From contig NZ_FOWR01000031.1 in assembly GCF_900115495.1 (NCBI RefSeq), positions 1-62,916 of the forward strand: a DNA stretch of 62,916 bases, read 5' to 3'. The DNA is from Enterovibrio norvegicus DSM 15893 (GTDB lineage: Bacteria; Pseudomonadota; Gammaproteobacteria; Enterobacterales; Vibrionaceae). The stretch's first letter is position 1, and each line of letters opens with the position of its first letter. Under the pieces are notes generated by a model. That model was given only the letters and a program-made list of their open reading frames with translations. It was not told the origin of the DNA and made no database searches. The translations under genes were made by a program, and so were the position numbers. Of this stretch, positions 32,313 to 62,560 are shown piece after piece.

Positions 32313-33242
32313 ATGGACCAAAAATTAGGAAAATTGCTTTCCGACATCCTCGCTGCAGATTCGGTGAGCGGCACTTCTCTTATCATGACCGTTTTCGGTG
32401 ATATTTTGGCGCGCCGGGGAGGGTCGATCAGTCTTTCAAGCCTGATTGAGCTACTGAGCGTGTTTAATGTGTCTGATCGCTTTGTCAGAACCTCGGTGTT
32501 TCGCTTAGTGAAAGATGGATGGTTAGTCGCTGAGCGAAGCGGGCGTTACAGCTTTTATCACGTAACCGAAGAGGCGATGGAACGATTTACCGAGGCGGAA
32601 GAGCGTATTTATAGTGCGCACGATGCAGAGTGGAATCGCAAATGGCAAATGATCTCTCTACCCAATGTAAGTGGTAGCGAACTGATGGAAGCACGTAAGC
32701 ACCTCGAAAGTGCAGGCTATGCAATTTTGTCTACTTCAGTGATGCTTTATCCTCGCGCCGACAAAGTGATGACCCGCCACTTGCTGAATAGATACGCATT
32801 AGGTGACAAAGCGCTTGTGTTTGAGGCCGAGTCCTGTGACTTAATGGATGCGAATGAAGGGAATCTAAAATCGCTGGTGGCCAGACTTTGGTTGCTTGAC
32901 GAGGTGGAAGAGCGTTTCCAAACGCTATTGAGTCAGTTTAGGCCTGTGCTCGCTATGTTAGAAAATGGTAACGGTATTGAGCCTGCTCAAGCGTTTCAAG
33001 TTCGAACCTTATTGATCCATATCTATCGCCGTGCGTTGTTGAAATATCCCCCCTTGCCGGAAGAGTTATTGCCAAGTCATTGGCCTGGAAAAGCAGCACG
33101 AACACTAACGCACAATATTTATAATTTGGTGGTGTATTCAGCAGAACAACACGTTGATGCAGTCGCCCGTGCAGCCGATGGTGCGCTACCGAAAGCTGAC
33201 AAGCAGTTTTGTGAGCGTTTTGGAGGCATCACACTGCGTTGA
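32313..33242 (+). CDS. paaX: Transcriptional repressor PaaX
   Basis: The 309-residue regulator has an N-terminal winged helix ('SVSGTSLIMTVFGDILARRGGSISLSSL', 'NVSDRFVRTSVFRLVKDGWL') and a C-terminal effector domain ('LLIHIYRRALLKYPPLPEELLP'). PaaX represses paa promoters and is released by phenylacetyl-CoA. The last residues 'QFCERFGGI' are typical. It lies 124 bases after paaK and 19 bases before paaY. Confidence 0.95.
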   Translation: MDQKLGKLLSDILAADSVSGTSLIMTVFGDILARRGGSISLSSLIELLSVFNVSDRFVRTSVFRLVKDGWLVAERSGRYSFYHVTEEAMERFTEAEERIYSAHDAEWNRKWQMISLPNVSGSELMEARKHLESAGYAILSTSVMLYPRADKVMTRHLLNRYALGDKALVFEAESCDLMDANEGNLKSLVARLWLLDEVEERFQTLLSQFRPVLAMLENGNGIEPAQAFQVRTLLIHIYRRALLKYPPLPEELLPSHWPGKAARTLTHNIYNLVVYSAEQHVDAVARAADGALPKADKQFCERFGGITLR

Positions 33243-33261
33243 TATGACAAAGGAGTCAGTC

Positions 33262-33861
33262 ATGCCCTGTTATGCTTTGGACGGAATATCGCCCGTCGTT
33301 GAAAAAGGTGCGTATGTGCACCCTGAAGCGGTACTGATTGGTGATGTTATTGTTGAACGGGGTAGCTACATTGCACCGTTTGCCAGTCTACGTGGAGACT
33401 TTGGTAGAATTCACATCAAGGCCAATGCCAACGTGCAGGACAATTGTGTCATTCATGCTTTTCCCGGCGTTGATGTTGTTGTGCATGAAAGAGGGCACAT
33501 TGGTCACAGCGCAATATTGCACGGCTGCATAGTGGAAGAGGGAGCACTTGTTGGCATGAATACCGTGGTGATGGATGGCGCGGTTATCGGCGCACACAGC
33601 ATTGTCGCTGCCCATTCTCTTGTCGTGTCTCAGCAAACGATCCCTACAAAAATGCTCGCACTTGGTAGCCCAGCCAACGTTGTCCGTGAACTGAGAGAGG
33701 AAGAGGTTACCTGGAAAAGCCTCGGGACGAATGGTTATATTGAGCTGACCGAGCGTTGCCTTGCCAGCATGCAAGAAGTAGAGCCTCTTAACGCCGTTGA
33801 GCCAGATCGTAAGCGGATGGTCATTGATGAAAGCATCAAGCCGAAATTTGCGGACAAATGA
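33262..33861 (+). CDS. paaY: Hexapeptide-repeat thioesterase PaaY
   Basis: The 199-residue gamma-carbonic-anhydrase-like left-handed beta-helix starts 'MPCYALDGISPVVEKGAYVHPEAVLIGDVIV' in family fashion. Three His for the metal site are plausible in 'CVIHAFPG', 'GHIGHSAILHGC'. PaaY hydrolyses stalled CoA intermediates of the pathway. The ATG was chosen from its AAGGAG site 19 bases after paaX. Confidence 0.94.
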   Translation: MPCYALDGISPVVEKGAYVHPEAVLIGDVIVERGSYIAPFASLRGDFGRIHIKANANVQDNCVIHAFPGVDVVVHERGHIGHSAILHGCIVEEGALVGMNTVVMDGAVIGAHSIVAAHSLVVSQQTIPTKMLALGSPANVVRELREEEVTWKSLGTNGYIELTERCLASMQEVEPLNAVEPDRKRMVIDESIKPKFADK

Positions 33862-45979: not shown

Positions 45980-48310
45980 TCAATTAATTTGTTTTTCCGC
46001 TTTGTCCGCTGTGTGCAAGTCTAAAATACGGTTCGCTTGTTGGATATTTACCGACATCAGGTTGAGGATCTTCTGTAAGGTTGTCGATCCTGGTGAAATG
46101 TTCATTCTGGCCTTTTCTTCGTTCTCTTTAGCGAGTTTAGCCAAGCTTGGCATATCCAAATTCAATGCAGTCCCTTTTACCACATGCAAGGCATTGAAGA
46201 GCATATCAAGATCCCCGCGACTAAAGGCGTTAATGAGGTTGTCAGAGGCTTTTTCAAACTCCTCTATCATGAGTAAAATTAAGCAGCGTTGCTCTTCTTT
46301 ATCGTCATCGAAAACCGCGAGCGTAGAGCTAGATGACAGTTCTTCTTCCGTCATCGGCAGTGCGCTTTTCGGCATTCTCGATAAACAAACGACATTCGAG
46401 GTTTCGGCACCTTGTGTGGTGATACCACGAGCATTTCGTAGTCGTTCGAAATCATTCATAAAATGTTGAATGGCGCTTTCAATGCTGCTTTTTTGGATCG
46501 GTTTAGTGAGGACATGATTAGCACCAATGTCCAAGAATTCGTCGTGGGCTTCTTTAAACACATCAGCCGTGCAGGCAAAAATGATAACGGGAGAGCGCAT
46601 TTTTTGACGGATATAATGGATGGCGCCAATGCCGTCGAGCTCAGGCATGTGTTTGTCCATAAGAATCAGGTCATAGGGTTTTGCTTCTAGTGCCTCAATG
46701 GATTTTTGCCCGTCCACAGCAATATCTACTTGGTGCCCCATTTTTTCACATAAACGTTTAGCGACCATGGCATTCACAGCGTTGTCATCTGTAATTAGGA
46801 TATCAAGCGATTCAATGGCAGAAATACGGGGCTTTGCTGCAAGTACTTCGACGTCTTCTACACATTCGTCAATAACATCCAGTGGCACGGTGATGACAAA
46901 GGTACTGCCTTGGCCTTCATCACTGACCACACTAATGGCGCCTTTCATGGTTTCGATGATATTTTTCACGATCGACAAACCTAACCCTGTCCCCCCAAAT
47001 TTGCGTGTGGTTGACGACTCTGCCTGACGGAAAGGTTCAAAGATATCGGTGAGCTTGTCCTTCGAAATACCCACCCCTGTGTCTTGTATCCACATTCCCA
47101 GTTGGTTTTCACTTACTTTATAATCGCAGATGATTTTCACACTGCCTTTGTTGGTGAACTTGATGGCATTACCCACAAGGTTAAAAAGTACTTGGCGAAA
47201 GCGAGAACTGTCACCAATAAAGGTGATGTCTTCGGAAATATTACTTTTTACTTCGAGAATAATATCTTTTTCGTTGGCAATAGGACGCAGCGCATTGGTC
47301 ACGGGATCAATGAGTTGATGGAACTTGAAAGGGTGATATTCAATTTCGATAAGCCCCTGTTCGACCTTAGAAAAATCCAAAATATCATTGAGGATGGTGA
47401 CCAAATACTCGCCAGAATCGTTGATGATCTGAATGTTTTTCTTCGTTGATAATTCCTGTGTTTCATCCGCGATAAGTTGTGCCATGCCGAGCACGCCATT
47501 CATGGGTGTTCTGAGTTCATGGCTCATTGTGGCCAAGAAAAGTGATTTGGCTTGATTAGCGCGCTCAGCATTTTCTGTCATTTCAGTCAGTTTCTGGTTT
47601 AACTCATTCAATTTATCAACACGATGCCATGAAGATAAGAGAATGAAACCAATGAGGCTTAAAAGTGAAAGACTGAATAACACCACAGACATCTGAAAAG
47701 TGTGAAATTCCATTTCTTTTAACTCACTTTCCGTCGCTTCGACAAACTCTCCGCGATGGCCAATTACCATGTCGTTAATCAGCAGTGAGATTTCTTTGTT
47801 CAATGCATTGTATCGCTCTATAAAGTGCATGTTTTGCTCGTTTGAAAGGTGCAAACTGGCAGCGATTTCTGCGGGTAAAGTGTTAATAGATTTATCGCGT
47901 TCTGAGAGAGTATGAAGGGCACTGTTTCGCGTGATGATTAACGCAATAAGGTTGTCGATAGACTGTGTAAGGTGTCGAAATTCTTCGGAAAAGTAATCTA
48001 TAGCACTGTCGATGCGTTGCGTATTTTGATTAAAAACTTCGACGTGAGACCCGTGAGTATTTGATACAAAGCTTTCCAGCCTTCTTTCTGTGTTAACTAC
48101 GCCACGTGTGATCACATGAGGCGTGACAGAATGACCAGAATTGAATGCGATAGCTTCATCGCGCAAATACAAGATTTCATGGCCTAGCGTCGTTACCTCA
48201 ATGTTGAGGTGAGTCAATTGATTCTTCACGTTGTAACCGTTTGTCGCTATTAGCAATAACACGGCAAACAAAACGAGAAAAGCATACCGGAGATGAGCAA
48301 GTTTATTCAC
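45980..48310 (-). CDS. Hybrid sensor histidine kinase with receiver and Hpt domain
   Basis: The 776-residue kinase has TM1 at about 8-25, a periplasmic helical domain of about 180 residues, and TM2 at about 207-227. A coiled coil follows, then HisKA ('[18 protein letters not shown]', phospho-His near 265), HATPase ('[13 protein letters not shown]', '[11 protein letters not shown]', '[10 protein letters not shown]'), a receiver ('[15 protein letters not shown]', phospho-Asp about 560) and a C-terminal Hpt domain ('[14 protein letters not shown]'). It is a self-contained His-Asp-His phosphorelay like ArcB/BarA, so it needs a separate response regulator, not visible here. Its ATG lies inside the end of the peroxidase gene (8-base overlap). 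Confidence 0.93.
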
Positions 48311-49355
48311 GTTCTAGTATCTCCAGAACCTGTGGCCTTGGCGCACTGAGTGAATGCAGAAAAGCAGATAAATCGTTTATTACCGTTGGTTCTATGGCGT
48401 GTCCTAATTGAACCTTCGCCATGATCTCTATGGCTTCTTCTAAATTGCTTGTTCTGCCGTCATGAAAGTAGGGCGGTGTATCGGCAACATTTCTCAAGCT
48501 GGCAACGCGAAACAGGTATTTATCTGCATTTTGTTGGGTGATGAGATAACGGCCCATGTCTTTTTCATTGGCTTTTTTCCCGTCTGAAGTGGCGTTGTCA
48601 TAATAGCCAAAACGTTGCATCAAGCTTCCACCGATATTTTGTCCCTGATGGCAGTTAATGCACCCTAACTTTTGAAAGGCTATCCAACCTTGTTTGGCCG
48701 ATGAGTCAATGGCGTATTGCTCACCGTTAAGATAGCGGTCAAAAGGAGAGTTTGGGGTCAGTAGTGATTCTTGAAAGGCAACAAGCGCATGCTGAATGGA
48801 ATCAGCGCTGATGGGTAAAATGTTTGCCTCATCGAACAGGGTTCTGTACTCGGGTTTAGAAGCAACATAGTCAACAATGGCAGCCCAAGACGACGCCATT
48901 TCTAACGGCGCGTGGACAGGACCGTCCATTTGTTTCTTCAAGCTATTTGTTCTTCCATCCCAAAAGAATCGGTAGTTCAGCGCGGCATTGAAAACCGTCA
49001 ATGAATTTCGTGAGCCTGCCCCGCCCACGCCAACAGAGACGGGCGTGATTTCAGCGCCGTTTGTTTGAAGATTGTGGCAACTGTTACAGCTTACGCTGTT
49101 GTTTGATGAGAGACCCTCGTCTCTGAATAAGGTCCAGCCTACTCTGATCAGTGGGAGGTCATAATCAAAGTGACTTGGAATGGGAAAAACGAGTGCGTTT
49201 TGGTAGAGGGAGTTTATGTCTGCATTTGTTCCGTGACTGTGTGAATCATGCTCTTGTCTGTCTATGAGCGAACTAACAGGTGCAAAGAGAATCCCTACAC
49301 CTATTGCGATAATGAGGGACAGCAACCCGATAAGCAAAACTCGACGATAAACCAT
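48303..49355 (-). CDS. Di-haem cytochrome c peroxidase, membrane-anchored
   Basis: The 350-residue protein has an N-terminal signal or anchor (residues 5-26), two c-type haem sites CNSCH (90-94) and CINCH (232-236), and '[14 protein letters not shown]' / '[14 protein letters not shown]', the usual MauG/CcpA segments. It reduces H2O2 with electrons from small c-type cytochromes in the periplasm, or oxidises a partner protein as MauG does. A His-rich stretch follows the anchor ('HDSHSHG'). Co-transcribed with the overlapping kinase gene downstream. Confidence 0.9.
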
Positions 49356-49554: not shown

Positions 49555-52500
49555 TTAAATAGGTCGTGCTTTATGGCCTTGAATTACGTGTTCATTGGCG
49601 GTGTTTACATACCCTAGCAAGGTGTTGTACGCGCGTTTTGGCATACTCATCATCACTAAAGGCACTAAGTACAATACGGTGAAGAACGACGTGGTCATGC
49701 AGAACACAATCACCACCGCGATGTTGTATTTAGCCACTGCGCCAAAGTTAAATTGAAACACCAACGGCAGCACACCAAGGATCAGCGAAAACGAGGTCAT
49801 AAACACCGCATTAAAGCGCTGAGAGCAGCCTTCAATAATGGCGTCTTTCAGCTTAGCTGGGTCTGCATGCTCACGCGCAATACGAATCACTTCATACACC
49901 ATGATCACCGCTTGTTTCGACGATAAACCCACCGCCGTCAGAATCGACAACCGCGTATAAATGTTGTCGGACAGACCAAACATATCCAGCGCGATATACC
50001 CCGAAAAGTAGGTCACTGGCACCGTGGAAAGCACGATGATCAGCGGCGCGACCACAGAATCAAACAGCACCGTCAGTAGCAAGAAAATCAGCAGTAGCGA
50101 GAACAAGGTAATGTTCATGTGCTCGGTCACTGACGACGAAATCGAGCGGCTTGAGCCAATAAAGGTGATGTTGTGTTCTGCAATGCCTTTCGACATCAGA
50201 ATGTCTTTCAAGGTATGAATTGCATCGTACTTGTTCACGCCAGACAACGTAATACCGCGAATTTGAACACTTGGCAGGCCGTTGGTTTTATTGATGTTAA
50301 GCGGTTCAAAAGACGGCTCAACATGCTGAATCGCACTTTTCATGATTTTACGGTAGCCATCGTCATACAAGGTGTAGTCATCGATGGTGGTTGTGCCTTC
50401 TACCATGCTTTGACGATCTGACGGGCTGACGCCGAGATACACTTTTACGTTGTCGTTCGCATGAGGTGTTTTGCCAATATAGTTTGGTTGGGAAAACGCC
50501 GCGATGAGTGACGCAAAGTAGCGACGTTCCGCACTGCCGTAGGTTGTGGTATCCACTAAGGTATCGATGTTGAATTGGTTCGACACATACTTGGCATCGT
50601 GTACCAAGAACTCGTAAAGCCCGGTGGCACGCGCTTCTCTCAATGCCGCTTCGACTTTATCTAGCACTTGTTCTGTGTCGCTGCCCATGATCGCCATGTC
50701 GATAGGGAAGGTGGATGCGCCTGGAATGTCCGTTGGCAAAATCACAAACGAACGGCTCAAGGTTTCTTGGGCGAGCAGTGACGCCAAGCGCTTAGACTGT
50801 TCCACCAGAAGGTTATTCTTCTGAGGATTATCGACGAACTGTTGAGCTGTTTCTTGAATGGGTTTTGTGATGTGTTCCCACCACACAAGATTGTCGCCGT
50901 TTTCCTGCGAGCCAGAGACTGGCTCTTTCAGGCGGACATAATGGGTGATCATATTGCTGTCAGGCAGGCCAGTGACATAGTTGGTGGAATCCACCCAATC
51001 CAGCGCCAAAATACGTTGCGTCAGTTTGCTGGCTTGTGCCTGAACGTCTGATGACGTTGCATTCGGGCTGACTTCACTCAGTACCAACAACAAACGTTTG
51101 TCTTCCGGTGGCGCGACTTCGCTGTCGCTGTTTTGCCATGAAAAGAACCCCGCGACTAACACACCCATGATGACCACAGCAGTCAGCGACCGGATCACGC
51201 GGCTTTCTGCGAAAAGGCACAGGGATTGGTGATACGCGCGTAACACTGGGTTTTGGTACGCCTCGCTTTTGGCGTTGCTTGCTGTGTTATGTGGTGTGTT
51301 ATTTGCCACTTGATTGACATGAGCGCGAGCGCTCGGCAACAGCTTGGGTGTGATAAGCACAGAAACAAACAAAGAACACAGCAGGGCGATGGAAATGGCG
51401 ATGCCGAACTCTTTGCTGACCACACTGTAATCGGCACTTGAGAAAATATACGGTAAATACACAACCACCAATGTAAGCGTGATAGCAACCAATACCATCA
51501 AGATGGCGCGTAATCGCATCAGTTGGCTGCTAGATTGCGTGCTGGCTGTGGTTGGCGCTGCACTGTGTCCGTTCAAGTAATCTGTCACCACAATGGAATC
51601 ATCCACCACGAGGCCAATGGCGATGATAAGCGCAGTAATCGTGATCAGGTTGATGGACTCGAGCGACACGGAATAGAACGCAAAGGCCAACAGTAACGAA
51701 AGGGGAATCGACAGAGAAATGGCAAAGGCCGAGGCCACAGAGCGTGTCGTGAAATACACGATCAAACACGTCACGGCGATAGACAAGATAATCGACAGCA
51801 GGGTTTCCTTGATAGAGCCATACAGCATCACGGTGCTGTCCATGATTTCCTGCGCTTTGATGTCAGGCTCACCGACCAGAAAATCGGTGATCATGGTTTT
51901 GACTTCGGTTGAAACGGAAAGCGGGTTTGCGCGGCCATCGAAGGTCGCCAGCATCACCACGCCGTCTTTGTCGTTGAACTTGGCTTTTACGCGGGTGTAT
52001 TCGTTGGCAACGCGAAACGTCGCGATATCGGATAAGGCGTGAACCCCTTGCGCGCCATCATCTTCAAGGCGCAAGGTCGCCATTTTTTGAATGCCGTTAT
52101 CGACGTCTTTGTGGTGATAAATCTCGTAGTTTTCACCGTCCACCAAATAGCTCGCAGGCTGGGTAAATGCCGACTGCACGGTGTCATATACTTGGTTCAG
52201 TGCTAGACCTGCCGCGTTTAAACGGTCTTGATCCACATCGATGTAAATCGCATCGCTCGGGCCATAAAGGGCGACCGATTGAATGCCGGGTAAGCTGCGA
52301 AGAATGGGGGTGATTTCACTTTCCAACAGTCGACTGACCAATGAGTCTGAACGTGCGTTAGAGGTAAATACGTACCCCAAATCAGGGGCGAAATCACCTT
52401 TGTCTAAGCCGGATGTCAGCTCATCAAGGTTGTTTTGCACCATAGGGCGGTTGGTGAGCTGGTTGCTGATATCGCGGGCGACGGCATCAATGTCCACGCT

Positions 52501-52833
52501 TTTGTCGAACTTCCCCGTAACGCGCAGTGAATTGTTGCCCACGGTTAAGCGGGTATATTCCAGCCCGTCTTGTTCCGCGAAAATGTCTTCAATGTCGCTC
52601 GCCACGTGAGTGGCGATGTACTTCGCAGGCTTATCGTAAAATTGGGCGGAAACAAAAATGGTGCTGCTGCGCGAGTAGGGGAAGGACGTTAGCGTGACGA
52701 ATTTCAGTGCGGCCAATCCACACATTGTGATGAGCAACATCAGAATGATGTAGCCCATGCGCGATTCGAAATAGCGTCCTAGCCAAGAGGTCGCTGGGTT
52801 CTCCATGCTCTTTTTCATCGCATCAGGTTTCAT
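49555..52833 (-). CDS. RND-family efflux permease
   Basis: This 1092-residue inner-membrane pump has the N-terminal helix after 'FESRMGYIILMLLITMCGL', two large periplasmic loops and 12 helices. The proton relay is intact: Asp-Asp in 'IAIGLVVDDSIVVTDYLNG' (TM4) and Lys in 'AVGLSSKQAVIMVYEVI' (TM10). Asn/Pro motifs 'FPYSRSSTIFVSAQFY' in the first porter segment suggest the HAE1-like branch with divergent specificity. It ends the operon and its ATG overlaps the stop of the MFP gene. No outer-membrane channel gene is present, so a chromosomal TolC would be used. Confidence 0.92.
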   Translation of the reverse strand: MKPDAMKKSMENPATSWLGRYFESRMGYIILMLLITMCGLAALKFVTLTSFPYSRSSTIFVSAQFYDKPAKYIATHVASDIEDIFAEQDGLEYTRLTVGNNSLRVTGKFDKSVDIDAVARDISNQLTNRPMVQNNLDELTSGLDKGDFAPDLGYVFTSNARSDSLVSRLLESEITPILRSLPGIQSVALYGPSDAIYIDVDQDRLNAAGLALNQVYDTVQSAFTQPASYLVDGENYEIYHHKDVDNGIQKMATLRLEDDGAQGVHALSDIATFRVANEYTRVKAKFNDKDGVVMLATFDGRANPLSVSTEVKTMITDFLVGEPDIKAQEIMDSTVMLYGSIKETLLSIILSIAVTCLIVYFTTRSVASAFAISLSIPLSLLLAFAFYSVSLESINLITITALIIAIGLVVDDSIVVTDYLNGHSAAPTTASTQSSSQLMRLRAILMVLVAITLTLVVVYLPYIFSSADYSVVSKEFGIAISIALLCSLFVSVLITPKLLPSARAHVNQVANNTPHNTASNAKSEAYQNPVLRAYHQSLCLFAESRVIRSLTAVVIMGVLVAGFFSWQNSDSEVAPPEDKRLLLVLSEVSPNATSSDVQAQASKLTQRILALDWVDSTNYVTGLPDSNMITHYVRLKEPVSGSQENGDNLVWWEHITKPIQETAQQFVDNPQKNNLLVEQSKRLASLLAQETLSRSFVILPTDIPGASTFPIDMAIMGSDTEQVLDKVEAALREARATGLYEFLVHDAKYVSNQFNIDTLVDTTTYGSAERRYFASLIAAFSQPNYIGKTPHANDNVKVYLGVSPSDRQSMVEGTTTIDDYTLYDDGYRKIMKSAIQHVEPSFEPLNINKTNGLPSVQIRGITLSGVNKYDAIHTLKDILMSKGIAEHNITFIGSSRSISSSVTEHMNITLFSLLLIFLLLTVLFDSVVAPLIIVLSTVPVTYFSGYIALDMFGLSDNIYTRLSILTAVGLSSKQAVIMVYEVIRIAREHADPAKLKDAIIEGCSQRFNAVFMTSFSLILGVLPLVFQFNFGAVAKYNIAVVIVFCMTTSFFTVLYLVPLVMMSMPKRAYNTLLGYVNTANEHVIQGHKARPI

Positions 52834-53978
52834 CGGATCATTCCCACCAGTTGTTCAGTGTCATTGGTTTCCGTGCTTGTCGGCGTGTCGCGTTTTGGTT
52901 CAGGTCTTTTTACGCGAACCAATTCGTTATCAAGTAACTTGAATGATCCTGCGGTGGCGATGCGGTCGCCCTCGGAAACACCGCTTTCCAGCTCTAACAC
53001 CCCGTCGTCATACCAACTGACTTGCACGTAGTTCTTCTTCACGCGGCGACCATCAAGCTTGAACACATAGAAGCCTTTGTAATCCAAATGCACATACTTG
53101 TTTTCAAGGAAAATGCCTTGATCAGCATGTTGCAGCGGCAAGTTAGATGTGCAGCGTTCGAACAGCGAATGGTTCACCAAACTTGCGGGTGTGCCTGTGC
53201 TTTCCATCACCACGTCATCAGGCGTCAATGTGCCGTAAAGAGTGACAAACTCACCGTTGTCTTCCGGCTCATGATGGCTGTATTGCGCCGTGGCAATTAC
53301 GTCACCGTTATCGACGGAGCGCAGGGCGATTTCATCCCGTAGCGCGATAGACGAGAAAATATGGAGTGGGATTTTCGAGGTGAACTCGAAAGTTTGGTTA
53401 CCGTAAAACGTCAGGACAGACACGCCAGGGTTTACGCGATCATATTGCTTCACAGACGGCGTTTCGAATACGCCGTCTTCCGGCGCGTAGAACTTGAAAG
53501 ACTCAAACAGTGAACGTTGATACGCCACTTCTGCGCGAAGGTTATCCACCTTCAATTGCAGTTCATCGGTTTCTTGTTTCGAATTTTTCACGCGGAGTGA
53601 ACGGTAGCGTTTCAGGTTCAGTTCATTGAGGCGCAAATTGTTTTGCGCCACTTGGTAGTGATAACGCACCGATTCGTTTTCAATCTCGAGCAACAACTCG
53701 CCCTTCTTCACCCGATGGCCGCCTTTGCGTACATACACCACTTCCCCTTCCACCTTGGGGGCAAGGTGGTAAATGTTCTGTGGGGCAATCATGCAAGCGG
53801 ATTGATACATCTTGTTGCGGTGTTCCGTCTGTACCAACAGGCTTTCCACGGTTTTCATTTGAAAGCCTGCGGGAATATCGGTGTCAGGTGCTTTTTTCTT
53901 CACGCCCGCCACAGAATAGACGGAGACACCGAGTGCCACGGTTAACACCGGGATAAGAAGCGCGAGTTTATTGTTCAT
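52830..53978 (-). CDS. Membrane fusion protein (HlyD/RND periplasmic adaptor)
   Basis: The 382-residue adaptor has an N-terminal membrane anchor (residues 4-24) and lipoyl halves around 'APKVEGEVVYVRKGGHRVKKGELLLEIEN' (quoted: 'GEVVYVRKGGHRVKKGELL') and 'FYAPEDGVF'. A short coiled coil ('NNLRLNELNLKRYRSLRVKN') and beta-barrel domain follow. It couples the RND pump to TolC. The start at 53978 overlaps the ligase stop (ATGA); an upstream longer frame is not real. Confidence 0.9.
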   Translation of the reverse strand: MNNKLALLIPVLTVALGVSVYSVAGVKKKAPDTDIPAGFQMKTVESLLVQTEHRNKMYQSACMIAPQNIYHLAPKVEGEVVYVRKGGHRVKKGELLLEIENESVRYHYQVAQNNLRLNELNLKRYRSLRVKNSKQETDELQLKVDNLRAEVAYQRSLFESFKFYAPEDGVFETPSVKQYDRVNPGVSVLTFYGNQTFEFTSKIPLHIFSSIALRDEIALRSVDNGDVIATAQYSHHEPEDNGEFVTLYGTLTPDDVVMESTGTPASLVNHSLFERCTSNLPLQHADQGIFLENKYVHLDYKGFYVFKLDGRRVKKNYVQVSWYDDGVLELESGVSEGDRIATAGSFKLLDNELVRVKRPEPKRDTPTSTETNDTEQLVGMIR

Positions 53979-55576
53979 AGTGTCTCTGCTAACTGTCTTG
54001 GTTGAACATGAGTGATTGGCTCTGGCAGTTGCCATTCAACGAGGTCACCGTCGAGCAGGGCTTGCTTCAGCTTTTGCTTGTTGTGCTTGCCGTTGTCGTT
54101 GATAGGAATGTCCACCAAGCGTTCGACACGTTTCGGCAAATGCGATGACAAGGCAGAGCGTTTCAACAGGCGTTCGCGCAGCAATTCGTCAGACATTGAT
54201 TCGCCCACTTCTTCCACAATAAAGGCCGTGATCGCCATGGTGTCGGCATTCACTAAAATGCAGGCATCGCGAAGTTCAGGCTGCGATTTCAACCACTGCT
54301 CGTGCTCTTTGCAGGAATATTTCAAGCCATCAATCTTGAACACTTCGTCTTTGCGGCCACTGAGGTAGAGATAACCGTCGCTGTCCATGCGTCCGAAATC
54401 ACCAGTCGCGAGTTTCTTCTGGCGGTCATTTTCATCAAAGAAAATCGCCTTACGCGTTGCGTCTGGGTTATCCAAATACTCCGTCATCACATGCGGGCCA
54501 GACACCACGATTTGACCTTCGGTGCCAGCCGGAACAGGTTGGTTGTTCTCATCCAAGATCTCGATGCGTGTACCGGGAATGGCAATGCCCACGCTGTCCG
54601 GTTTCTTCGCGTATTCGTCAGGGTGTAGCCAGGTGGTGCGCTTGCACTCGGTTAAGCCGTACATGGAGAAGAAACGGCAGTTTGTGAAAATGGTCTGCAT
54701 GTATTCCACTTCACCGCGGTGAATCGCTTCGCCGGTATTGGTGATGGTGGTGACCGATTCCAGTTGCTTGGCACTGCCGAATTGCTTAATCAAACGCGCC
54801 ATCGACGGCACGATAGGGAAATGGGTCGCGCTGATTTTCTGCACTTCCATCAAGTTCTTCTGCGGGATCATGAAAGAGTTAGTCAAGAAGGTCTGACAGC
54901 CCGTGAACAGTGGGAACAGGATTTGATAGAAGCCATAATCGAAGTTCAGCGGCAGCGCGTTATAAATCACGTCATCGCCACTAATTTCCAAATACTCGAT
55001 GATGGATTGCGCCGCAAACAACACATTGGAATGGCTCAGTGCCACGCCTTTAGAACGGCCTGTAGAACCTGATGTGAAGAACACCAAACCAATGTCGCTC
55101 GCCACAGGTTTGCGGTTGCGTTGCTGTGCAGGCACATTGGTTTCGTTTACGCCAGTAGCGCGGTCATTTCTGATCCAACCAGGCGCATCCAACGAGGCGG
55201 TGTCCAACGCGCGATAGTAGCTCAACTGATAGCTGGCCTTTGCTGCATGCTCCGGCGCAATCAGCAGTATGTCCGCTTCGTACTGGTCGATGATGGATTG
55301 GTTTTTCAACTGATCGGCACGTGCATCAATGGTCGCGAACAGCACACCCAGTTTGTTGGCCGCCAGCAGCAACGGCAAGGTGTTCATGCCGCGACCAGCA
55401 ATGTATAGCAGGCGATCGCCCAGCCCTAAGCCTTCTTTTGCGAGTGCTTCTGCATGGCTGTTGGTTTTGTCGAGCAAATCTGTGAACGTCCAATTGTTCT
55501 TCGCGTCGCTCAGACAAACCTTGCTCGGTTGCTGTTGTTGGATTTGTACCAACTGATCGTAAAGTGTCGTTTTCAT
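53975..55576 (-). CDS. AMP-forming acyl/aminoacyl ligase, carrier-protein loading type
   Basis: The 533-residue adenylate-forming enzyme has A3 'VFFTSGSTGRSKGVALSH' (about 165-182), A5 'MYGLTECKRTTW' (about 305-316), 'TGDFGRMDSDGYLYLSGRKDEVFKIDG' (quoted as 'TGDFGRMDSDG', 'LYLSGRKDEVF') and the C-terminal Lys in 'NDNGKHNKQKLK'. It resembles stand-alone ligases such as PltF, PigI and CloN4 that load proline on a carrier protein. No carrier or condensation domain is fused. It would load the acid onto the operon's own ACP. Substrate is not readable. Twelve bases separate it from the MATE gene. Confidence 0.88.
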   Translation of the reverse strand: MKTTLYDQLVQIQQQQPSKVCLSDAKNNWTFTDLLDKTNSHAEALAKEGLGLGDRLLYIAGRGMNTLPLLLAANKLGVLFATIDARADQLKNQSIIDQYEADILLIAPEHAAKASYQLSYYRALDTASLDAPGWIRNDRATGVNETNVPAQQRNRKPVASDIGLVFFTSGSTGRSKGVALSHSNVLFAAQSIIEYLEISGDDVIYNALPLNFDYGFYQILFPLFTGCQTFLTNSFMIPQKNLMEVQKISATHFPIVPSMARLIKQFGSAKQLESVTTITNTGEAIHRGEVEYMQTIFTNCRFFSMYGLTECKRTTWLHPDEYAKKPDSVGIAIPGTRIEILDENNQPVPAGTEGQIVVSGPHVMTEYLDNPDATRKAIFFDENDRQKKLATGDFGRMDSDGYLYLSGRKDEVFKIDGLKYSCKEHEQWLKSQPELRDACILVNADTMAITAFIVEEVGESMSDELLRERLLKRSALSSHLPKRVERLVDIPINDNGKHNKQKLKQALLDGDLVEWQLPEPITHVQPRQLAETL

Positions 55577-55588
55577 CGGGATATTCCT

Positions 55589-56944
55589 TTAAAGAGTCAC
55601 AGACTGCATTTTCTGCATGAGATGGTATTCGTAGCGTGAGCGACCGATTTCAAACAGGATGAAAATAGCGGACGCGAAGAAGGCCACGGCAAGTAAGGCA
55701 TAAAGCTCAGAGCTGGTGGTGCAATAAGGACGCACCATTTCAATCAGCGCGACTTCTCCGCCAAGGTAGAGCGCGTTGTAGATAAAGGCGCGACGTGAGC
55801 GGAAGGTTTGCTCCATGTACACCGTCATGCCGACATAGGTGGAAAGCACCAACAACGCTGGCGAGATCATGCGCAGGTATTCGGCACATTCCGCGGCAAT
55901 GGATGGCTCGTTAACCAGCCACAGTGCAATGTTTTCACTGAAGATAAACACGGCCAGCAACACAGGGATTTGGTACAGAATCGATTGGCTCACGAACTGC
56001 GTCACGCTGTTTTTCAACATGCTGTAGTCGTAGTCTGCCGAGTTTTTGTTGAAGCGAATCGCTTGGCTGACACCTACCGCAATCGACAACATGATGATGA
56101 GGTTCTGAATACGTGCATAAAGCGGGAAGGCAGAAGCCGCAGCATCGCTGTATTGCAGCAAGATGTAAGTGATGTAGAACAGCCACGCAATCAGGAGTAA
56201 GTAGCTGGAAAATATAGGCACAATAATGGACAGCAGCTGCTTCACTTGGGTTTGCATAGCGGAGAAATACGCCAGTGCGCGAGGCGCGATAATTTGGCGT
56301 AACGTGGGTGACAGTGTCAGCCCCATGGTGATGGCAACCAATGTTGAACATGCCGCCGCATAAGGCATCGACATCACGCCGTGGCCTTGCTTGGCGAAGA
56401 TGAAAATCAAGCTGAGTTGCAACACGTTGGCGACAACCACAATGCTGGTGGCGAGCGCGTTTTTCTCTTTCGCAAACAAACAGGTCGTCAGAATCGAAGA
56501 GACGGTGATTGGCAAGAACACCAAGGTCATGGCGAGCAGCAAATCAGAGAAATCGAGATAGGCGACGATAGGCAAGTGGAAATAAGATTGGAGCAGGGGC
56601 ATCAGCCCCCACACCATCGCGCCTAATCCACCAAACAGCACCACGGCCATGCCAAACAAGGTGGCAACCGCGCTGTGAACCTCGGCTGCCCCTGCATCTT
56701 CATGGCTTGATACGATAGGCAATGCGCCAGCACGTAACGCGTCAGACAAGGCTGACAAGGTGAAGCCAAACGGCATAAACACCGTGAGGATAAGCAGCGC
56801 GCGTTGGTCTTCTTGGCTGATTAACCACACCGCCAGCAATTGCGTGACAAACGTGGAAGATGACGACGCGAAAATGGACAGCGTCGATCCAACCGAGGAG
56901 AAGGTAGGGCCAACCGAAGAAAGGATAGAGGCGATATTTTTCAT
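55589..56944 (-). CDS. MATE-type multidrug/flippase exporter
   Basis: The 451-residue protein has about 12 hydrophobic helices arranged in two halves: 'ILTVFMPFGFTLSALSDALRAGALPIV', quoted as 'MPFGFTLSALSDALRAG', and 'MISPALLVLSTYVGMTVYMEQTFR' in the C-half. It has the feel of MatE/DinF proteins that export organic compounds by sodium or proton antiport. No lipid-II-flippase motif stands out. Its ATG overlaps the stop of the dehydrogenase gene. With a second exporter (RND) in the same operon, the product may be exported stepwise. Confidence 0.83.
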   Translation of the reverse strand: MKNIASILSSVGPTFSSVGSTLSIFASSSSTFVTQLLAVWLISQEDQRALLILTVFMPFGFTLSALSDALRAGALPIVSSHEDAGAAEVHSAVATLFGMAVVLFGGLGAMVWGLMPLLQSYFHLPIVAYLDFSDLLLAMTLVFLPITVSSILTTCLFAKEKNALATSIVVVANVLQLSLIFIFAKQGHGVMSMPYAAACSTLVAITMGLTLSPTLRQIIAPRALAYFSAMQTQVKQLLSIIVPIFSSYLLLIAWLFYITYILLQYSDAAASAFPLYARIQNLIIMLSIAVGVSQAIRFNKNSADYDYSMLKNSVTQFVSQSILYQIPVLLAVFIFSENIALWLVNEPSIAAECAEYLRMISPALLVLSTYVGMTVYMEQTFRSRRAFIYNALYLGGEVALIEMVRPYCTTSSELYALLAVAFFASAIFILFEIGRSRYEYHLMQKMQSVTL

Positions 56945-58053
56945 AGTCCGCTCCATGGGCTCACGTAATCGTTCCGCTTCAGGATGTTGACCAAGTTATG
57001 TTTTTGGATAACGTGCGTGCCTTCCATAAAGTCAAAGGCATAGCTATCGCGCATAAACTTGCGAACATGGGTGAAATGGTCAGATTGAAGTTTGCTGAAG
57101 TGCTGGAACAAGAAAGGACGCATTTGCTTCACTAAATCATCCAATTCAATTTTCGCCAGCGACGAATACGCCATGTTGTCCGGTTCTTTGTCGGCGGTTT
57201 TTGCCGCCACCAAGTTCACTGCCCGAATGGTTGAAAGAATGGTGTTGAAGTGGCGACAGGCATCTTGCGAAATACCTGCGTCTTTACCGTGGTCGAGCAG
57301 CACATCCACCGCGGCTTGTGCATAGCCGATGCTCAGGCCAACCACGCACGGGCGCATTTTGTTGAAGGTGCGGATCATCGAAAACAAGCCGCGCTCACAA
57401 GGGTGAAGGTGTTCACCGAGCAACTGCTCTTGGGGGATGGGTAGCTCATCAAACTTCAAGTAAGACAAGCGCGCACCACGCAAACAATGTTGCTTCAACA
57501 AACGACGTTTCACCTGCGGCGAGTCGATCATGTCTTTGGTGACCAGAGCGGCACGTGTTGCCAATGGGCTTGCCCCTGTTTTGAACAGCACCACGCCAAT
57601 GTCACCGCGCGCTCCGTTGCCAATTAACCACTTTTCCCCGCTTAATGTGCCGTTGGTGTAGCGTGATTCTAAACGCCCAGCATCACTGCCTTTACTTGGC
57701 TCTGTTACAGCAAAGAAGGTGCGGCAGTTATGTTCTTTTAAGTAGTCATAGAAATGGGCTTTCTGTTCTTCCGAGCCTGCTTCATTCAAGATGACGCCAG
57801 ACAGACTTGGGCCAGGTGAAAACAGCAATGCACCGGGGTCGCCGTAAGAAAGCTGCTCAAACATGCGAACGCGCTCTTCTGTTGTCATGGAAAAACTGCT
57901 CAGGAGCAGCGCATCCAATTGTTCGTTGCGAAAATCCGTGTTGCTGTGAATGTCTTGGTAGTTATCAACCGCGCTGGCCACTTCGCGAAGCCACTCAATG
58001 TGTTCGCCGTATTTCTCGCCGTAGGTTGCGGCATATCTGTCTAAATTGATCAT
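56941..58053 (-). CDS. Acyl-CoA-dehydrogenase-like flavoenzyme
   Basis: The 370-residue protein keeps 'FFAVTEPSKGSDAGR' (117-125, FAD/substrate loop) and 'RDSYAFDFMEGTHVIQKHN' with Glu344 as the likely catalytic base of the 'EGT' motif. The mid-region 'YaRxRxQFG' motif is absent, so it is a divergent member. It probably makes a double bond in an acyl or prolyl group bound to the operon's carrier protein, as PltE, PigA and CloN3 do. The ATG at 58053 is preferred because it overlaps the upstream stop (ATGA) and has GGAG 8 bases before. Confidence 0.85.
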   Translation of the reverse strand: MINLDRYAATYGEKYGEHIEWLREVASAVDNYQDIHSNTDFRNEQLDALLLSSFSMTTEERVRMFEQLSYGDPGALLFSPGPSLSGVILNEAGSEEQKAHFYDYLKEHNCRTFFAVTEPSKGSDAGRLESRYTNGTLSGEKWLIGNGARGDIGVVLFKTGASPLATRAALVTKDMIDSPQVKRRLLKQHCLRGARLSYLKFDELPIPQEQLLGEHLHPCERGLFSMIRTFNKMRPCVVGLSIGYAQAAVDVLLDHGKDAGISQDACRHFNTILSTIRAVNLVAAKTADKEPDNMAYSSLAKIELDDLVKQMRPFLFQHFSKLQSDHFTHVRKFMRDSYAFDFMEGTHVIQKHNLVNILKRNDYVSPWSGL

Positions 58054-58682
58054 CGCCATTGCTCCAAATCGTTCAGTAAAAGGGCATATTGCAGGTGATG
58101 TTCGACGCCGCTTCCGGCAAGAATGGAAATGCCGCCTTGCAGGTTCGAAATGATGTTTGAAGCCAAAAGCACGCGCTCTGACAGAGGCACGAGCGAATCA
58201 GGCAATGTTTCAGAGGCAAGCTGGAGTTGGAAAAGAAAACGGTGATAGTCGGTGATAGACAAACTCACGTTCTCAATGTCTAGCAAGGTGTTATCGCCGA
58301 CCTTTTTGGTTTTCAAACGCGCAACGAGGTGGCGGAAAAACACCGACATCTCCGTGTGAAAGCAAGAGAGGGACTGTTGAACGAAACCTTCCCAGGAGAA
58401 TTGTTGTTTGCTGGAAGATGCCAATGCAGACAGGGCAAGGGCGGGTAAGGCTCTCCCTGAACGTGTTGAAACCTTCACGATGTAAGTGTTGGGAAGGGCG
58501 ATGAGGTTTTCAGCCTCAATCGCATCCATGCTGACGGGTTGACCGCTGACATTTCCTCGGCGATCTATCATCACGAAGGTGCTTTCCGCACCGTGAAAAA
58601 CAGATACCAAGGTTCCTTTTAGCTGCTCTTCTTGCAGATCATCAATGATGCTGCAATTGTTTTCGAAATCGAGACGATACAT
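58050..58682 (-). CDS. Unrecognised protein with ACAD-like C-terminus
   Basis: The 210-residue protein gives no confident family. Its N-terminal half is beta-rich ('TLVSVFHGAESTFVMIDRRGNVSG'; quoted 'FHGAESTFVMIDRRGN') and its C-terminal ~90 residues are helical. The end 'SNLQGGISILAGSGVEHHLQ' before 'NDLEQW' recalls the last helices of acyl-CoA dehydrogenases ('GG-G...verl-RD'), so it may be half an ACAD or a helper of the neighbouring enzyme. Translation is coupled to both neighbours (TAATG before, ATGA after). Function unknown. Confidence 0.75.
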   Translation of the reverse strand: MYRLDFENNCSIIDDLQEEQLKGTLVSVFHGAESTFVMIDRRGNVSGQPVSMDAIEAENLIALPNTYIVKVSTRSGRALPALALSALASSSKQQFSWEGFVQQSLSCFHTEMSVFFRHLVARLKTKKVGDNTLLDIENVSLSITDYHRFLFQLQLASETLPDSLVPLSERVLLASNIISNLQGGISILAGSGVEHHLQYALLLNDLEQWR

Positions 58683-59572
58683 TACAACGGCCTCAACAAG
58701 CTGATGGTTGTGTTTAGCGATTCGGCATCTTCGTCAATGAAAACCCAAATACTGCTGCGGAATGAATCGGGGTTTTTCTGATATTCATCTAAAAGCTTCG
58801 GTAAGGTATTTACGGAATACTCTGGCGATAAATAGTGTGCGTTCTTCAGTAAATCAGGCGAGATGTCACGCTTGTCCGACAAATAATCCAACTGCTTAAA
58901 CGCCGCAGTATTTCGGTGAAGAAACAAGGTGCAATCACCCGCGCCGAGTTTGTGTTTCTCCAGCAGGGTTTTGATTTCTTCTGCCAGCGCAAAGCTCGAC
59001 GAATAGATCTTGTTTTCATTCAAGAACACGGAGTCTTCAAGTTTGAAAAGCGCACCGTCGTTGTTGGCTTGGCTGACGAACAACGCAGAGCCACTAGAAC
59101 TGACCGGCATGATGTTGTGATCAGGCAGGTAACGTGGCACAGCATTTTGCTCCATGCCCACCAATATCTTGGTGCGGGAATCGTCCAAACTGTCGGTGTT
59201 GAAAAGGATGTGAAGTGCTGTTGTGGTTGCGATTGAACCCACATCGCACACGTCAATGATCTCAGCCTCTAAGTCGCTTTTCCAAAGGAAGTAGGTCGCA
59301 AAGGCGGAGTACTCTGGGTCCCACTCGGGTGTCCAATAGCTAAAGGCCACATCAGAAATGTCAGGGTAAGCTGCAAACGGTAAATCGCTCTCAAGCACCG
59401 TATCAATGATGTTGGTGTAGCTATATTGGTCACCCGTCAAAAAGGTTTCTTGCGACAGGTCCTTATCGGAAATTCGGTATAAATCCTTAAAGTAGGTCGT
59501 ATACCGATCCCGGGGTTCCTGTCGTAGGCTCCTTTTTTCAAGTGGGAAATATTGGCAATAATTAATGTACAT
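58682..59572 (-). CDS. Divergent KAS III-like (thiolase-fold) protein
   Basis: The 296-residue product resembles FabH by eye. 'ISDVAFSYWTPEWDPEYSAFATYFLWKSDLEAEIIDVCDVGSIATTTAL' (72-120) parallels the FabH 'tp..p..a.....dv.aaCaGf.yAL' region; quoted here in pieces 'SYWTPEWDPEYSAFATYF' and 'IIDVCDVGSIATTTAL'. 'PVSSSGSALFV' fits FabH 'FGDGAGAAVL', 'LFLHRNTAAF' fits 'LVPHQANLRI' and 'YSVNTLPKLLDE' fits the C-terminal helix. The nucleophile Cys aligns with Ser113, and the third triad Asn is displaced. It may act as an acyl transferase, like CloN2. It is shorter than FabH (about 317). Confidence 0.65.
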   Translation of the reverse strand: MYINYCQYFPLEKRSLRQEPRDRYTTYFKDLYRISDKDLSQETFLTGDQYSYTNIIDTVLESDLPFAAYPDISDVAFSYWTPEWDPEYSAFATYFLWKSDLEAEIIDVCDVGSIATTTALHILFNTDSLDDSRTKILVGMEQNAVPRYLPDHNIMPVSSSGSALFVSQANNDGALFKLEDSVFLNENKIYSSSFALAEEIKTLLEKHKLGAGDCTLFLHRNTAAFKQLDYLSDKRDISPDLLKNAHYLSPEYSVNTLPKLLDEYQKNPDSFRSSIWVFIDEDAESLNTTISLLRPL

Positions 59573-59574
59573 AA

Positions 59575-59844
59575 TTAAGCAGCCGGTGCGAGTTCTACAT
59601 TTTCGACAATGTAATCAACCATTGCGCCAATAGAACTGAAATGACGTTCTTCCAAGCTTTCAGGGTTAATCGAAAAACCATCAATGGATTCCTCAAGCTC
59701 CATTAAGAACGTCAGTGACCCCAATGAATCCATCCCCAGATCGTCACGCAGGCTCGTATTTTCAGTGAGTACAACATCCTCTGGAATTGTGATGGTTGAT
59801 TTCAGGATGGCTACCATATTTTGATACGCGTTATCTCTTTGCAT
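59575..59844 (-). CDS. Acyl carrier protein
   Basis: The 89-residue carrier protein contains 'LRDDLGMDSLGSLTFL', with Ser40 as the phosphopantetheine attachment site, and the acidic helix II 'MELEESIDGFSINPESL'. It is the first gene of the operon and would carry the intermediate between ligase, dehydrogenase and KAS-like protein. The DSLGSL pattern is nearer stand-alone ACP/PCPs of secondary metabolism than housekeeping AcpP (DSLDTVE). The ATG at 59844 follows a GGAG site; the ATG at 59856 overlaps that site and is unlikely. No phosphopantetheinyl transferase is present here. Confidence 0.93.
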   Translation of the reverse strand: MQRDNAYQNMVAILKSTITIPEDVVLTENTSLRDDLGMDSLGSLTFLMELEESIDGFSINPESLEERHFSSIGAMVDYIVENVELAPAA

Positions 59845-60087
59845 AATTAACTCCATTTACGTGCTTTGGTTAGGTTGTGTGTTGCCATAAATCCATGAGT
59901 TCAAATTAAGCGTGGGAGGGCGATTTGATAACCTGACACTTATAACAGTAAGGGGGAGGGACGAAAGGTTAGAACGGATTGTTTGCTTTTATTTGTATGA
60001 AAAATAAAGGGAATAAATAAAAATGATGGTTGGTGTGGGTGTGAGGTGAAAGCGGTACTGTCATTTGTGACAGGCGAGCGGGTGCAT

Positions 60088-61249: not shown

Positions 61250-61601
61250 AGAATGTGCTTTACAGGCTCCACCGTAAATAAGGTCTCCTAACTTCTTCTG
61301 TTTAGTATTTGAATACTATTGCTATTAATTCTCATTAATAAGGCCGAAATAAGGAAGCTTTGTATTTTATCAAATCCTTATATTCATTAATCAAAAATAA
61401 CCTTCTATTTCTGATAGTTGAAATGGATAGTGTCTTTATAATATCCATAAATCGCTCAAGTAATCTAAGAGGTAATACTAATAAGAATGGTTATCGTTAA
61501 CTAAATTGTTGATAATATTTAGTTTTTTTGTTGCTAAATCAAGGGTTGTTAATTAATATTTTCACCACGTTGATAATATGTTTAACAAAAGGAACATCTT
61601 T
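61250..61601 (+). promoter_or_regulatory. Regulatory region upstream of bacterioferritin genes
   Basis: AT-rich 350 bases upstream of the bacterioferritin pair. The segment TAAGAATGGTTATCG (61482-61496) matches a 7-1-7 Fur-type site (TGATAAT-N-ATTATCA) at 11 of 14 positions on the minus strand. Bacterioferritin genes are often under Fur or small-RNA control. No gene is seen. Confidence 0.45.
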
Positions 61602-62072
61602 ATGAAAGGGCATAAAGAGGTCGTGGTTGAGCTCAACAGAATATTGACCTCAGAGTTGACGGCGATAAATCAGTATTTTCTTCATGCAAGAGTGTTTAGG
61701 CACTGGGGGCTGGAGGCTCTCAATGAAGTGGAATACAAAAAATCCATTCAAGATATGAAGCATGCAGACAAACTCATTGAAAGAATCCTATTTTTAGATG
61801 GTTTACCGAATCTACAGCATCTAGAAAGTCTGCGTATTGGTGAAGATGCCGAAGAGATGATGAGTTGCGACAAAGAAATGCTTGCGGACGAGCTGGTACA
61901 GCTCCGTGCAGCCATTGCCATCTGTGAAGACAAACAAGACTATGTATCTCGAGATATTCTCAACGAACTTTTGGAAGACGAGGAAGAGCATCTTGATTGG
62001 CTGGAAGCACAATTTGAATTGATTGGAATGACAGGAATACAAAACTATCTCCAATCTCATATGGACGACTAG
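61602..62072 (+). CDS. bfr: Bacterioferritin subunit with haem ligand, degenerate ferroxidase site
   Basis: The 156-residue ferritin-like protein stores iron in 24-mers. Like E. coli Bfr it has Glu18, Tyr25, Met52 (haem ligand at the dimer interface, in 'IQDMKHADK') and His54. Position 51 is Asp instead of the ferroxidase Glu, and position 94 is Leu instead of Glu; Glu127 and His130 remain ('EDEEEHLDW'). The di-iron centre is therefore incomplete while haem binding is kept. The ATG at 61602 ('MKGHKEVVVELNRIL') is the family start. A TTG/ATG upstream is less likely. It precedes its partner gene by 8 bases. Confidence 0.92.
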   Translation: MKGHKEVVVELNRILTSELTAINQYFLHARVFRHWGLEALNEVEYKKSIQDMKHADKLIERILFLDGLPNLQHLESLRIGEDAEEMMSCDKEMLADELVQLRAAIAICEDKQDYVSRDILNELLEDEEEHLDWLEAQFELIGMTGIQNYLQSHMDD

Positions 62073-62080
62073 GTGAAATC

Positions 62081-62560
62081 ATGAAAGGCAATCAAGACGT
62101 AATTTCGGCACTCAACCACCTGTTGGCGCATGAGTTGTCAGCAATGGACCAGTATTTTGTTCATGCTCGCATGTATGAAGATTGGGGTTTGCAAGAACTG
62201 TATGAGCGCATCAACCATGAGTCAGACGATGAGCGTGAACATGCCTCGTTGCTGATCAACCGCATCTTATTTTTAGAGGGCACACCAGATGTGAGTGCTC
62301 GCGAAGCACTGACAATCGGTAGTAGCGTTGAAGAGATGCTGCACAATGATTTGCAGTATGAATACAAGGTGGCGGAAGTACTTCGTAAGGTGATCGCGCT
62401 ATGCGAGGAAAAGCAAGACTACCAAACGCGTGAAATTCTTTTGCAATTGTTGGATGACACCGAATCAGACCATATGTATTGGCTAGAGAAGCAACTGCGA
62501 CTTATCAAGAGCGTGGGGCTTCAGAACTACATCCAATCCAAAATGGGCAAACCCGCTTAA
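62081..62560 (+). CDS. bfr: Bacterioferritin subunit with intact ferroxidase, no haem Met
   Basis: The 159-residue second subunit starts 'MKGNQDVISALNHLLAHELSAMDQYFVHARMYEDWGLQELY' (first 20 quoted: 'MKGNQDVISALNHLLAHELS'). All ferroxidase ligands are present: Glu18, Glu51, His54, Glu94, Glu128, His131. The residue at position 52 is Arg instead of the haem Met, and one extra residue lies before Glu128. It is complementary to the upstream subunit, as in BfrA/BfrB pairs of Neisseria and Pseudomonas. It ends just before a strong terminator. No bfd gene is seen. Confidence 0.92.
   Translation: MKGNQDVISALNHLLAHELSAMDQYFVHARMYEDWGLQELYERINHESDDEREHASLLINRILFLEGTPDVSAREALTIGSSVEEMLHNDLQYEYKVAEVLRKVIALCEEKQDYQTREILLQLLDDTESDHMYWLEKQLRLIKSVGLQNYIQSKMGKPA

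Follow-up and report, generated by a model that had tools for sequence, protein, structure and literature searches.

The stretch analysed here, hereafter the window, comprises 62,916 nucleotides of contig NZ_FOWR01000031.1 of Enterovibrio norvegicus DSM 15893, and carries on its minus strand, between positions 49,555 and 59,844, eight tightly packed genes that include a stand-alone acyl carrier protein (ACP), an AMP-forming ligase and predicted exporters. A first-pass annotation made from the sequence had described this set, and all eight open reading frames (ORFs) were found in the order it gave, with junctions as tight as claimed (+2, −1, −10, −16, +12, −4 and −4 bases from ACP to RND). The genes almost certainly constitute a biosynthetic gene cluster, of which the operon is only about half, so that the layout visible in the window is incomplete. 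With a probability of about 0.5, we read the operon as the carrier, oxidation and export half of a cluster that would use a beta-aminoacyl-ACP to build a small molecule; no polyketide synthase was noticed in the stretches read. The genes are, from ACP to RND:

59575..59844, minus strand: ACP, stand-alone carrier of 89 amino acids (aa); PF00550, 32.8 bits; phosphopantetheine serine S40 in GMDSL
58682..59572, minus strand: KASD, 296 aa, ketoacyl-ACP-synthase-like (KAS-like) protein with a thiolase fold in a predicted model
58050..58682, minus strand: UNK210, 210 aa, with equivalents in relatives by position
56941..58059, minus strand: ACAD, 372 aa, acyl-CoA-dehydrogenase-like flavoenzyme; PF02770, 38.3 bits; PF00441, 29.6 bits
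55589..56956, minus strand: MATE-family exporter, 455 aa; PF01554, 37 bits
53975..55576, minus strand: LIGC, VinN-like AMP-forming ligase (beta-amino-acid type) of 533 aa; PF00501, 203.6 bits
52830..53978, minus strand: MFP, periplasmic adaptor, 382 aa; TIGR01730, 89.1 bits, cut-off 94.9
49555..52833, minus strand: RND efflux permease, 1092 aa; PF00873, 352.8 bits

Pfam cut-offs were 20.8 (PF00550), 33.3 (PF02770), 22.4 (PF00441), 24.9 (PF01554), 29.9 (PF00501) and 28 bits (PF00873). MFP stays below its Pfam cut-offs (25.4 of 30) and slightly below that of TIGR01730, and its relatives, which open with MNNKLAL, favour a start at 53978 over the first ATG at 54035. The ACP start is preceded by GGAG, and D39-S40 is invariant in 6/6 aligned sequences. 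Use of the in-frame ATGs of ACAD (codon 3) and MATE (codon 5) would shrink the −10 and −16 overlaps. The G+C fraction of the operon is 0.50, against 0.476 in the part of the window preceding it.

KASD was chosen as a tracer for the gene set because it is rare: matches were found in 6 of 197 genomes of the family (own genome included) and, in the own genome only, among 369 genomes of the class and, by profile, among 394 of the order. These genome sets are samples, and they missed Photorhabdus and Xenorhabdus. Scanning genome contigs with a six-sequence KASD alignment gave 34 pattern stretches, nine of which are relatives, namely another E. norvegicus, E. baiacu (the nearest, with 95% KASD identity), Grimontia indica, G. 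celer and Vibrio ruber among the Vibrionaceae, together with Photorhabdus akhurstii, P. noenieputensis, Photorhabdus sp. and Xenorhabdus mauleonii. All nine share the identical eight-gene order (5/5 and 4/4 loci), and because this order is kept down to a KASD identity of 31–33%, the layout is not due to chance. UNK210 of V. ruber was unmatched by the window sequence and was assigned by position; V. ruber KASD had no match in plasmids; and the match to the MATE gene of P. akhurstii is broken into two pieces with about 590 bases between them (L029:6316-8205), so the gene may be interrupted. Judged from gene content and order, this is a rare pathway that certain marine vibrio relatives have in common with certain insect-pathogen symbionts.

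The other half of the cluster lies on a different contig of the same genome (C61) and encodes a BtrK-like decarboxylase, three KASIII-like enzymes (KASA, KASB, KASC), two amino-acid ligases (LIGA, LIGB), transglutaminase-like and hydrolase-like proteins, and luxI/luxR. This half, the decarboxylase and the quorum-sensing genes are absent from the first-pass annotation because they lie outside the window. In the other E. norvegicus, G. indica, V. ruber, X. mauleonii and P. noenieputensis the second half adjoins the operon, and in E. baiacu both halves share a single contig, about 10 kb apart. Upstream of the operon in the other E. norvegicus stand, in order, luxI, a gene for a 331-aa protein, luxR, a pyridoxal-phosphate (PLP) decarboxylase gene, KASA, LIGA, KASB, LIGB, hydrolase-like and transglutaminase-like genes, KASC, a second hydrolase gene and an extra ORF (L016:4358-5356; TIR-type nucleotide-binding in look and perhaps an insertion), followed by ACP. 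The second half of G. indica has the same gene kinds, KASB included, and that of G. celer was read from LIGB onward. V. ruber has the enzymes after RND, in the order KAS1, LIG1, KAS2, LIG2, hydrolase, transglutaminase-like protein, KAS3 and decarboxylase; X. mauleonii and P. noenieputensis have a smaller set of KAS1, LIG1, hydrolase, transglutaminase-like protein, KAS3 and decarboxylase. Family assignments in the own genome are PF00765 (autoinducer synthase), PF03472/PF00196 (LuxR), PF02784/PF00278 (decarboxylase) and PF01841 (transglutaminase core). The second hydrolase and that of V. ruber match PF03403 slightly above its cut-off, while the first hydrolase-like protein of Enterovibrio, named from a reading of its sequence, had no Pfam match. 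A second ACP was not found among ORFs under 140 aa carrying a GxDS[LM] motif in 14 loci, a scan that covered loci other than L046–L048.

The PDB chain closest to LIGC is VinN (3WVN; 211.7 bits, 1.7e-61), with the beta-aminoacyl-ACP synthetase 7DQ5 (140.4 bits) among the best other single-module matches. According to PMC11253843, beta-amino-acid recognition in VinN involves D230, F231, S299, K330 and R331, the last two in a beta13-beta14 loop that is one residue shorter than in alpha types, and Asp230 binds the beta-amino group and is common to alpha types too. LIGC residues D213, Y214, T281, K312 and R313 align with these five positions, K312 and R313 without gaps. D213 is present in each of the five LIGC sequences in the comparison, which come from the own genome, Grimontia, V. 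ruber, Photorhabdus and Xenorhabdus, an Asp that alone is not specific for the beta type, and the motifs FDYG, NTG and TECKR occur in 5/5 LIGC sequences and in 0/6 other cluster ligases. From TEC to the next aromatic there are 4 residues in LIGC versus 6–10 in the six other ligases. A Lys-Arg pair facing an acidic substrate would fit an aspartate-like amino acid, and LIGC probably loads a beta-amino dicarboxylate.

The top PDB match of the decarboxylase is BtrK, the L-glutamyl-[BtrI acyl-carrier protein] decarboxylase (1.9e-51), ahead of the best diaminopimelate decarboxylase (6.8e-36), and it is fairly likely to act on a carrier-bound substrate. Proximity to BtrK is a likeness to the butirosin BtrI/BtrK system, from which the cluster differs in having a ligase that looks like a beta-amino-acid type and in that aminoglycoside genes were not noticed. 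For LIGA, the nearest matches are alpha-amino-acid modules, among them linear gramicidin synthase.

These components recall the vicenistatin VinN and fluvirucin B2 FlvN systems, which provide beta-amino-acid starter units of macrolactams. The cluster shares with the VinN-VinL-VinO-VinM and FlvN modules aligned ligase pocket positions, a stand-alone ACP, a carrier-type PLP decarboxylase and additional alpha-amino-acid ligases that lack their own carrier. Unlike those modules, it adds ACAD, KASD, several KASIII-like enzymes, a transglutaminase-like protein, MATE and RND, and its hosts are gammaproteobacterial. No modular polyketide synthase was noticed among the ORFs around the cluster, the rest of the genomes not having been searched for one. 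PMC11284099 describes VinN as loading the carrier before VinO decarboxylates on the ACP, and VinM as adding L-Ala to the beta-aminoacyl-ACP, and has FlvN taking Asp.

KASD had been called KAS III-like in the first-pass annotation, a name for which a predicted model supports the fold, while the relationship could not be demonstrated by sequence. KASD is not an ordinary KAS III. The protein has no Pfam match and no sequence match to PDB chains of the KASIII family, and its profile aligns with that of KASA-C at a probability of 0.30%, compared with 0.08% for ACAD, an unrelated control. An AlphaFold2 model from 6 sequences was poor (pLDDT, the predicted local confidence score, 47.5), while one from 10 sequences was usable (pLDDT 75.0), with residues 14–38 and three shorter stretches below 50. 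The top VIA-align rows for the usable model are type III polyketide synthases, which supports a thiolase-superfamily fold as modelled; no FabH is found within the 50 rows listed. No His is invariant in the 10/10 KASD sequences, so the Cys-His-Asn triad is lacking; C109, the sole invariant Cys, sits at a strand end in the model, and the very-low-probability profile alignment places S113 at the catalytic Cys position and R220 at the His position. KASB and KASC match ACP_syn_III_C (PF08541), and KASA, at 15 bits below the cut-off, nevertheless aligns with them; C130 and H247 are invariant in 11/11 KASA/B/C sequences and the Asn position is H278, leaving this triad incomplete as well. The combination of a short thiolase-fold protein that has no conserved His with Cys-His KASIII-like enzymes that have no Asn is reminiscent of PqsBC of Pseudomonas aeruginosa, whose KASIII-fold subunit PqsB has none of the three FabH residues and whose Cys-His subunit PqsC is missing the Asn (PMC4807248). 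The case differs from PqsBC in that none of the PDB chains of that family matched KASD by sequence, and a KASD pairing is a candidate only.

UNK210 has no Pfam or NCBIfam match, and its equivalents outside Enterovibrio/Grimontia are 17–19% identical in an alignment of 10. The look of its C-terminus had raised the suspicion of a split ACAD half, which was rejected after a profile comparison gave a probability of only 0.04%. ACAD itself falls under the cut-off for the N-terminal domain PF02771, and all NCBIfam acyl-CoA dehydrogenase families listed for it score far under theirs. Its TEPxKGSD stretch and Glu346 (in MEG) are invariant in 8/8 sequences, and Glu346 falls on the EGT motif in an alignment to medium-chain acyl-CoA dehydrogenase, where the glutamate is the catalytic base. 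That ACAD oxidises an N-acylated beta-alanyl-ACP and so forms an enamide is a tentative assignment, less likely than not.

A palindrome whose form resembles LuxR-type boxes may connect the two halves in Enterovibrio. The two sites near the operon are:

60058..60073, no strand assigned: palindrome CTGTCA-N4-TGACAG, possible LuxR-type box, 213 bases upstream of the ACP start
59933..59948, minus strand: imperfect copy with 2 mismatches, weak alone, as 2-mismatch sites occur elsewhere in the window

The corresponding site to the imperfect copy has 1 mismatch in the other E. norvegicus. The 5.45-Mb genome contains 5 exact sites and none for a reversed control, and one of them lies 62 bases upstream of KASA on C61. 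Exact copies precede KASA in 4/4 Enterovibrio/Grimontia loci and ACP in 3/3 Enterovibrio loci, and luxI is preceded by a copy with one mismatch in the own genome and the other E. norvegicus and with two in G. indica. The stretches scanned from V. ruber, Photorhabdus and Xenorhabdus contain no exact palindrome. If as many as 3 mismatches are allowed, the pattern occurs 11 times in the window against a mean of 6.3 expected, a count reached by 6/100 shuffles and not significant, and shuffled sequences give imperfect dyads as good as several of those observed; the palindrome claim is founded on exact arms, chosen after the sites were noticed, and is not a blind test. Each of five Enterovibrio/Grimontia genomes has a single luxI match, located at the other half of the cluster (C61:12214-12732 in the own genome), which slightly raises our confidence that quorum sensing controls the cluster in Enterovibrio, a reading we consider rather likely.

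Three further exact palindrome copies in the own genome, at C16:71385, C26:109574 and C55:38878, may mark other regulon members. A 328–344-aa protein is also encoded beside luxI/luxR (L023:6992-8026, L022:5290-6285, L021:6391-7377), and its own-genome copy has no Pfam or NCBIfam match.

The genes present, their order and their joint occurrence, the resemblance of the ligase pocket, the decarboxylase family, the thiolase fold of KASD and the common palindrome are read from sequence or predicted fold; from them we infer every substrate, chemical step, the export of a product and its regulation, as follows. LIGC would adenylate an aspartate-like amino acid and load the ACP with a beta-amino acid, as VinN and FlvN do, after which the BtrK/TIGR03099-type PLP decarboxylase of C61 would strip the other carboxylate on the carrier, with beta-alanyl-ACP as the outcome should Asp be the substrate. 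LIGA and LIGB, presumed alpha-amino-acid ligases, could then (one or both) aminoacylate that amine directly in the manner of VinM, and this would account for the presence of several ligases beside one ACP. Next, ACAD, perhaps with UNK210, may dehydrogenate the acyl group; an N-acyl-3-aminoacrylyl (enamide) thioester would be a plausible result. Transfer, joining or release of the product would fall to the Cys-His KASIII-like enzymes, which have His for Asn and may pair with KASD in the way PqsC does with PqsB, acting alongside the transglutaminase-like and hydrolase-like proteins. Export would proceed through MATE and MFP/RND, and LuxI/LuxR may control both halves via the common palindrome in Enterovibrio. 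Taken as a whole, the combination of a polyketide-synthase-free beta-aminoacyl-ACP line, a new class of exported enamide-type (dehydro-beta-alanyl) metabolite, a catalytically altered KASIII-fold protein paired with Cys-His enzymes, a transglutaminase-like amide former and N-acylhomoserine-lactone control in Enterovibrio, exchanged among marine Vibrionaceae and nematode-borne insect pathogens, is rather unlikely to hold in every part.

Several points weigh against this beta-aminoacyl-ACP route. All enzyme activities of the cluster are predictions from sequence; the decarboxylase lies outside the window, with the halves on different contigs of the own assembly; and the likeness of LIGA and LIGB to VinM is proposed by role. 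The pockets of VinN and LIGC are similar and not identical, F231 and S299 being replaced by the bulky, different Tyr214 and Thr281, and the top NCBIfam model for LIGC is an exosortase-associated acyl-CoA ligase (238 bits, cut-off 592). Dehydrogenation of a beta-aminoacyl-ACP by ACAD is proposed on chemical grounds, and no aminoacrylyl-carrier intermediate was found among the papers listed from an open-access library, which leaves most subscription-journal papers outside its coverage. Because the palindrome is missing before ACP in 2/2 Grimontia, and because neither V. ruber nor any of the 3 Photorhabdus/Xenorhabdus genomes searched has a luxI, quorum control is not general.

The NCBIfam result raises the alternative of a displaced exosortase-A-type module of ligase, decarboxylase and ACP, which would modify a cell-surface or exported polymer while the pumps serve envelope assembly. 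In NCBIfam, LIGC and the decarboxylase indeed score best on TIGR03098 and TIGR03099; at 587.6 bits the decarboxylase of V. ruber is above the TIGR03099 cut-off of 478.45 (the own one reaches 301.7), and LuxI weakly matches an exosortase-system acyltransferase model (43.2 of 111.95 bits). However, LIGC remains under the TIGR03098 cut-off (238 and 368 of 592) and the accompanying genes are different: the exosortase-A system is not known to have alpha-amino-acid ligases, transglutaminase-like protein or three KASIII-like enzymes. No match to exosortase (PF09721) was found in the own genome, which further lowers a reading that we regard as improbable. An acyl signal or lipid, for which LIGC would activate a fatty or keto acid, ACAD would make a 2,3-unsaturated acyl-ACP and the KASIII-like enzymes a PQS-like or cyclic signal, would agree with the Cys and His of those enzymes, with acyl-CoA enzymes as the best weak ACAD matches and with LuxI/LuxR adjoining the other half. 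We nevertheless think it unlikely, as LIGC retains the amino-binding Asp and the Lys-Arg pair, needless in a fatty-acyl pocket, and the decarboxylase family acts on amino acids.

The first-pass annotation had raised a pyrrole-based product as one possibility, beside an unsaturated-acyl one. On the pyrrole-2-carboxyl route L-proline would be loaded on the carrier, oxidised by the ACAD to pyrrolyl-carrier and transferred by a KASIII-like protein, as in the PltF/PltE/PltL, CloN and PigI/PigA/PigG pathways. As classes, the ligase, carrier, ACAD, KASIII-like protein and hydrolase agree with it, and models of the prolyl-carrier dehydrogenase and of prodigiosin PigA are among the weak ACAD matches. 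Both fall far from their cut-offs (NF045652, 33.2 of 650 bits; NF053553, 33.1 of 500), and LIGC, with its VinN-like Lys and Arg, scores 89.5 bits to the prolyl ligase 6O6E against 211.7 to VinN, which puts ligase and ACAD outside the prolyl families. A carrier-type decarboxylase and alpha-amino-acid ligases accompany the gene set, and KASD has no conserved histidine. The pyrrole route was abandoned, on the scores of ligase and ACAD, as highly improbable. The broader proposal of a carrier-protein-based small-molecule pathway with exporters is supported, and, within the literature coverage given above, neither a described system with the same gene set nor a described product of the cluster was found, in agreement with the novelty claimed earlier. 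The main text of PMC9177418, on Photorhabdus/Xenorhabdus gene clusters, has no occurrence of transglutaminase, acyl-CoA dehydrogenase, ketoacyl, mauleonii or decarboxylase.

Among neighbouring genes, window positions 45980-49355, downstream of RND, encode an MbnH/MauG-like di-heme protein, with 160.8 bits to CCP_MauG, whose gene overlaps that of a hybrid histidine kinase. Both were rejected as operon members, being kept in E. baiacu (78–80%) and unmatched beside the operon in the four other relatives (the E. norvegicus, Grimontia and V. ruber stretches). Two tandem ORFs at 61578-62560 are, as we read their translations, presumably bacterioferritin-like. We take ORFs at 20296-33861 to resemble a phenylacetate degradation (paa) operon, and a nitrilase-like ORF to stand beside an aldoxime-dehydratase-like one at 16137-18556; an AMP-binding match falls in ORF 30854-32188, within the paa-like stretch. 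Beside the decarboxylase of P. noenieputensis (L048:218-7608) are ORFs that resemble type I CRISPR-Cas genes.

The split and joined arrangements among close relatives illustrate that an annotation confined to the window shows half of a pathway. Since the cluster occurs in strains that are both cultured and sequenced (V. ruber CECT 7878T, G. indica AK16, G. celer CECT 9029 and X. mauleonii DSM 17908), product discovery is directly feasible. If the beta-aminoacyl-ACP route is true, the logic of the actinomycete macrolactams would reach Gram-negative bacteria without a polyketide synthase, would gain an ACAD step on a beta-aminoacyl carrier, and would provide a further case of a KASIII-fold protein retained in a pathway without the usual catalytic residues.

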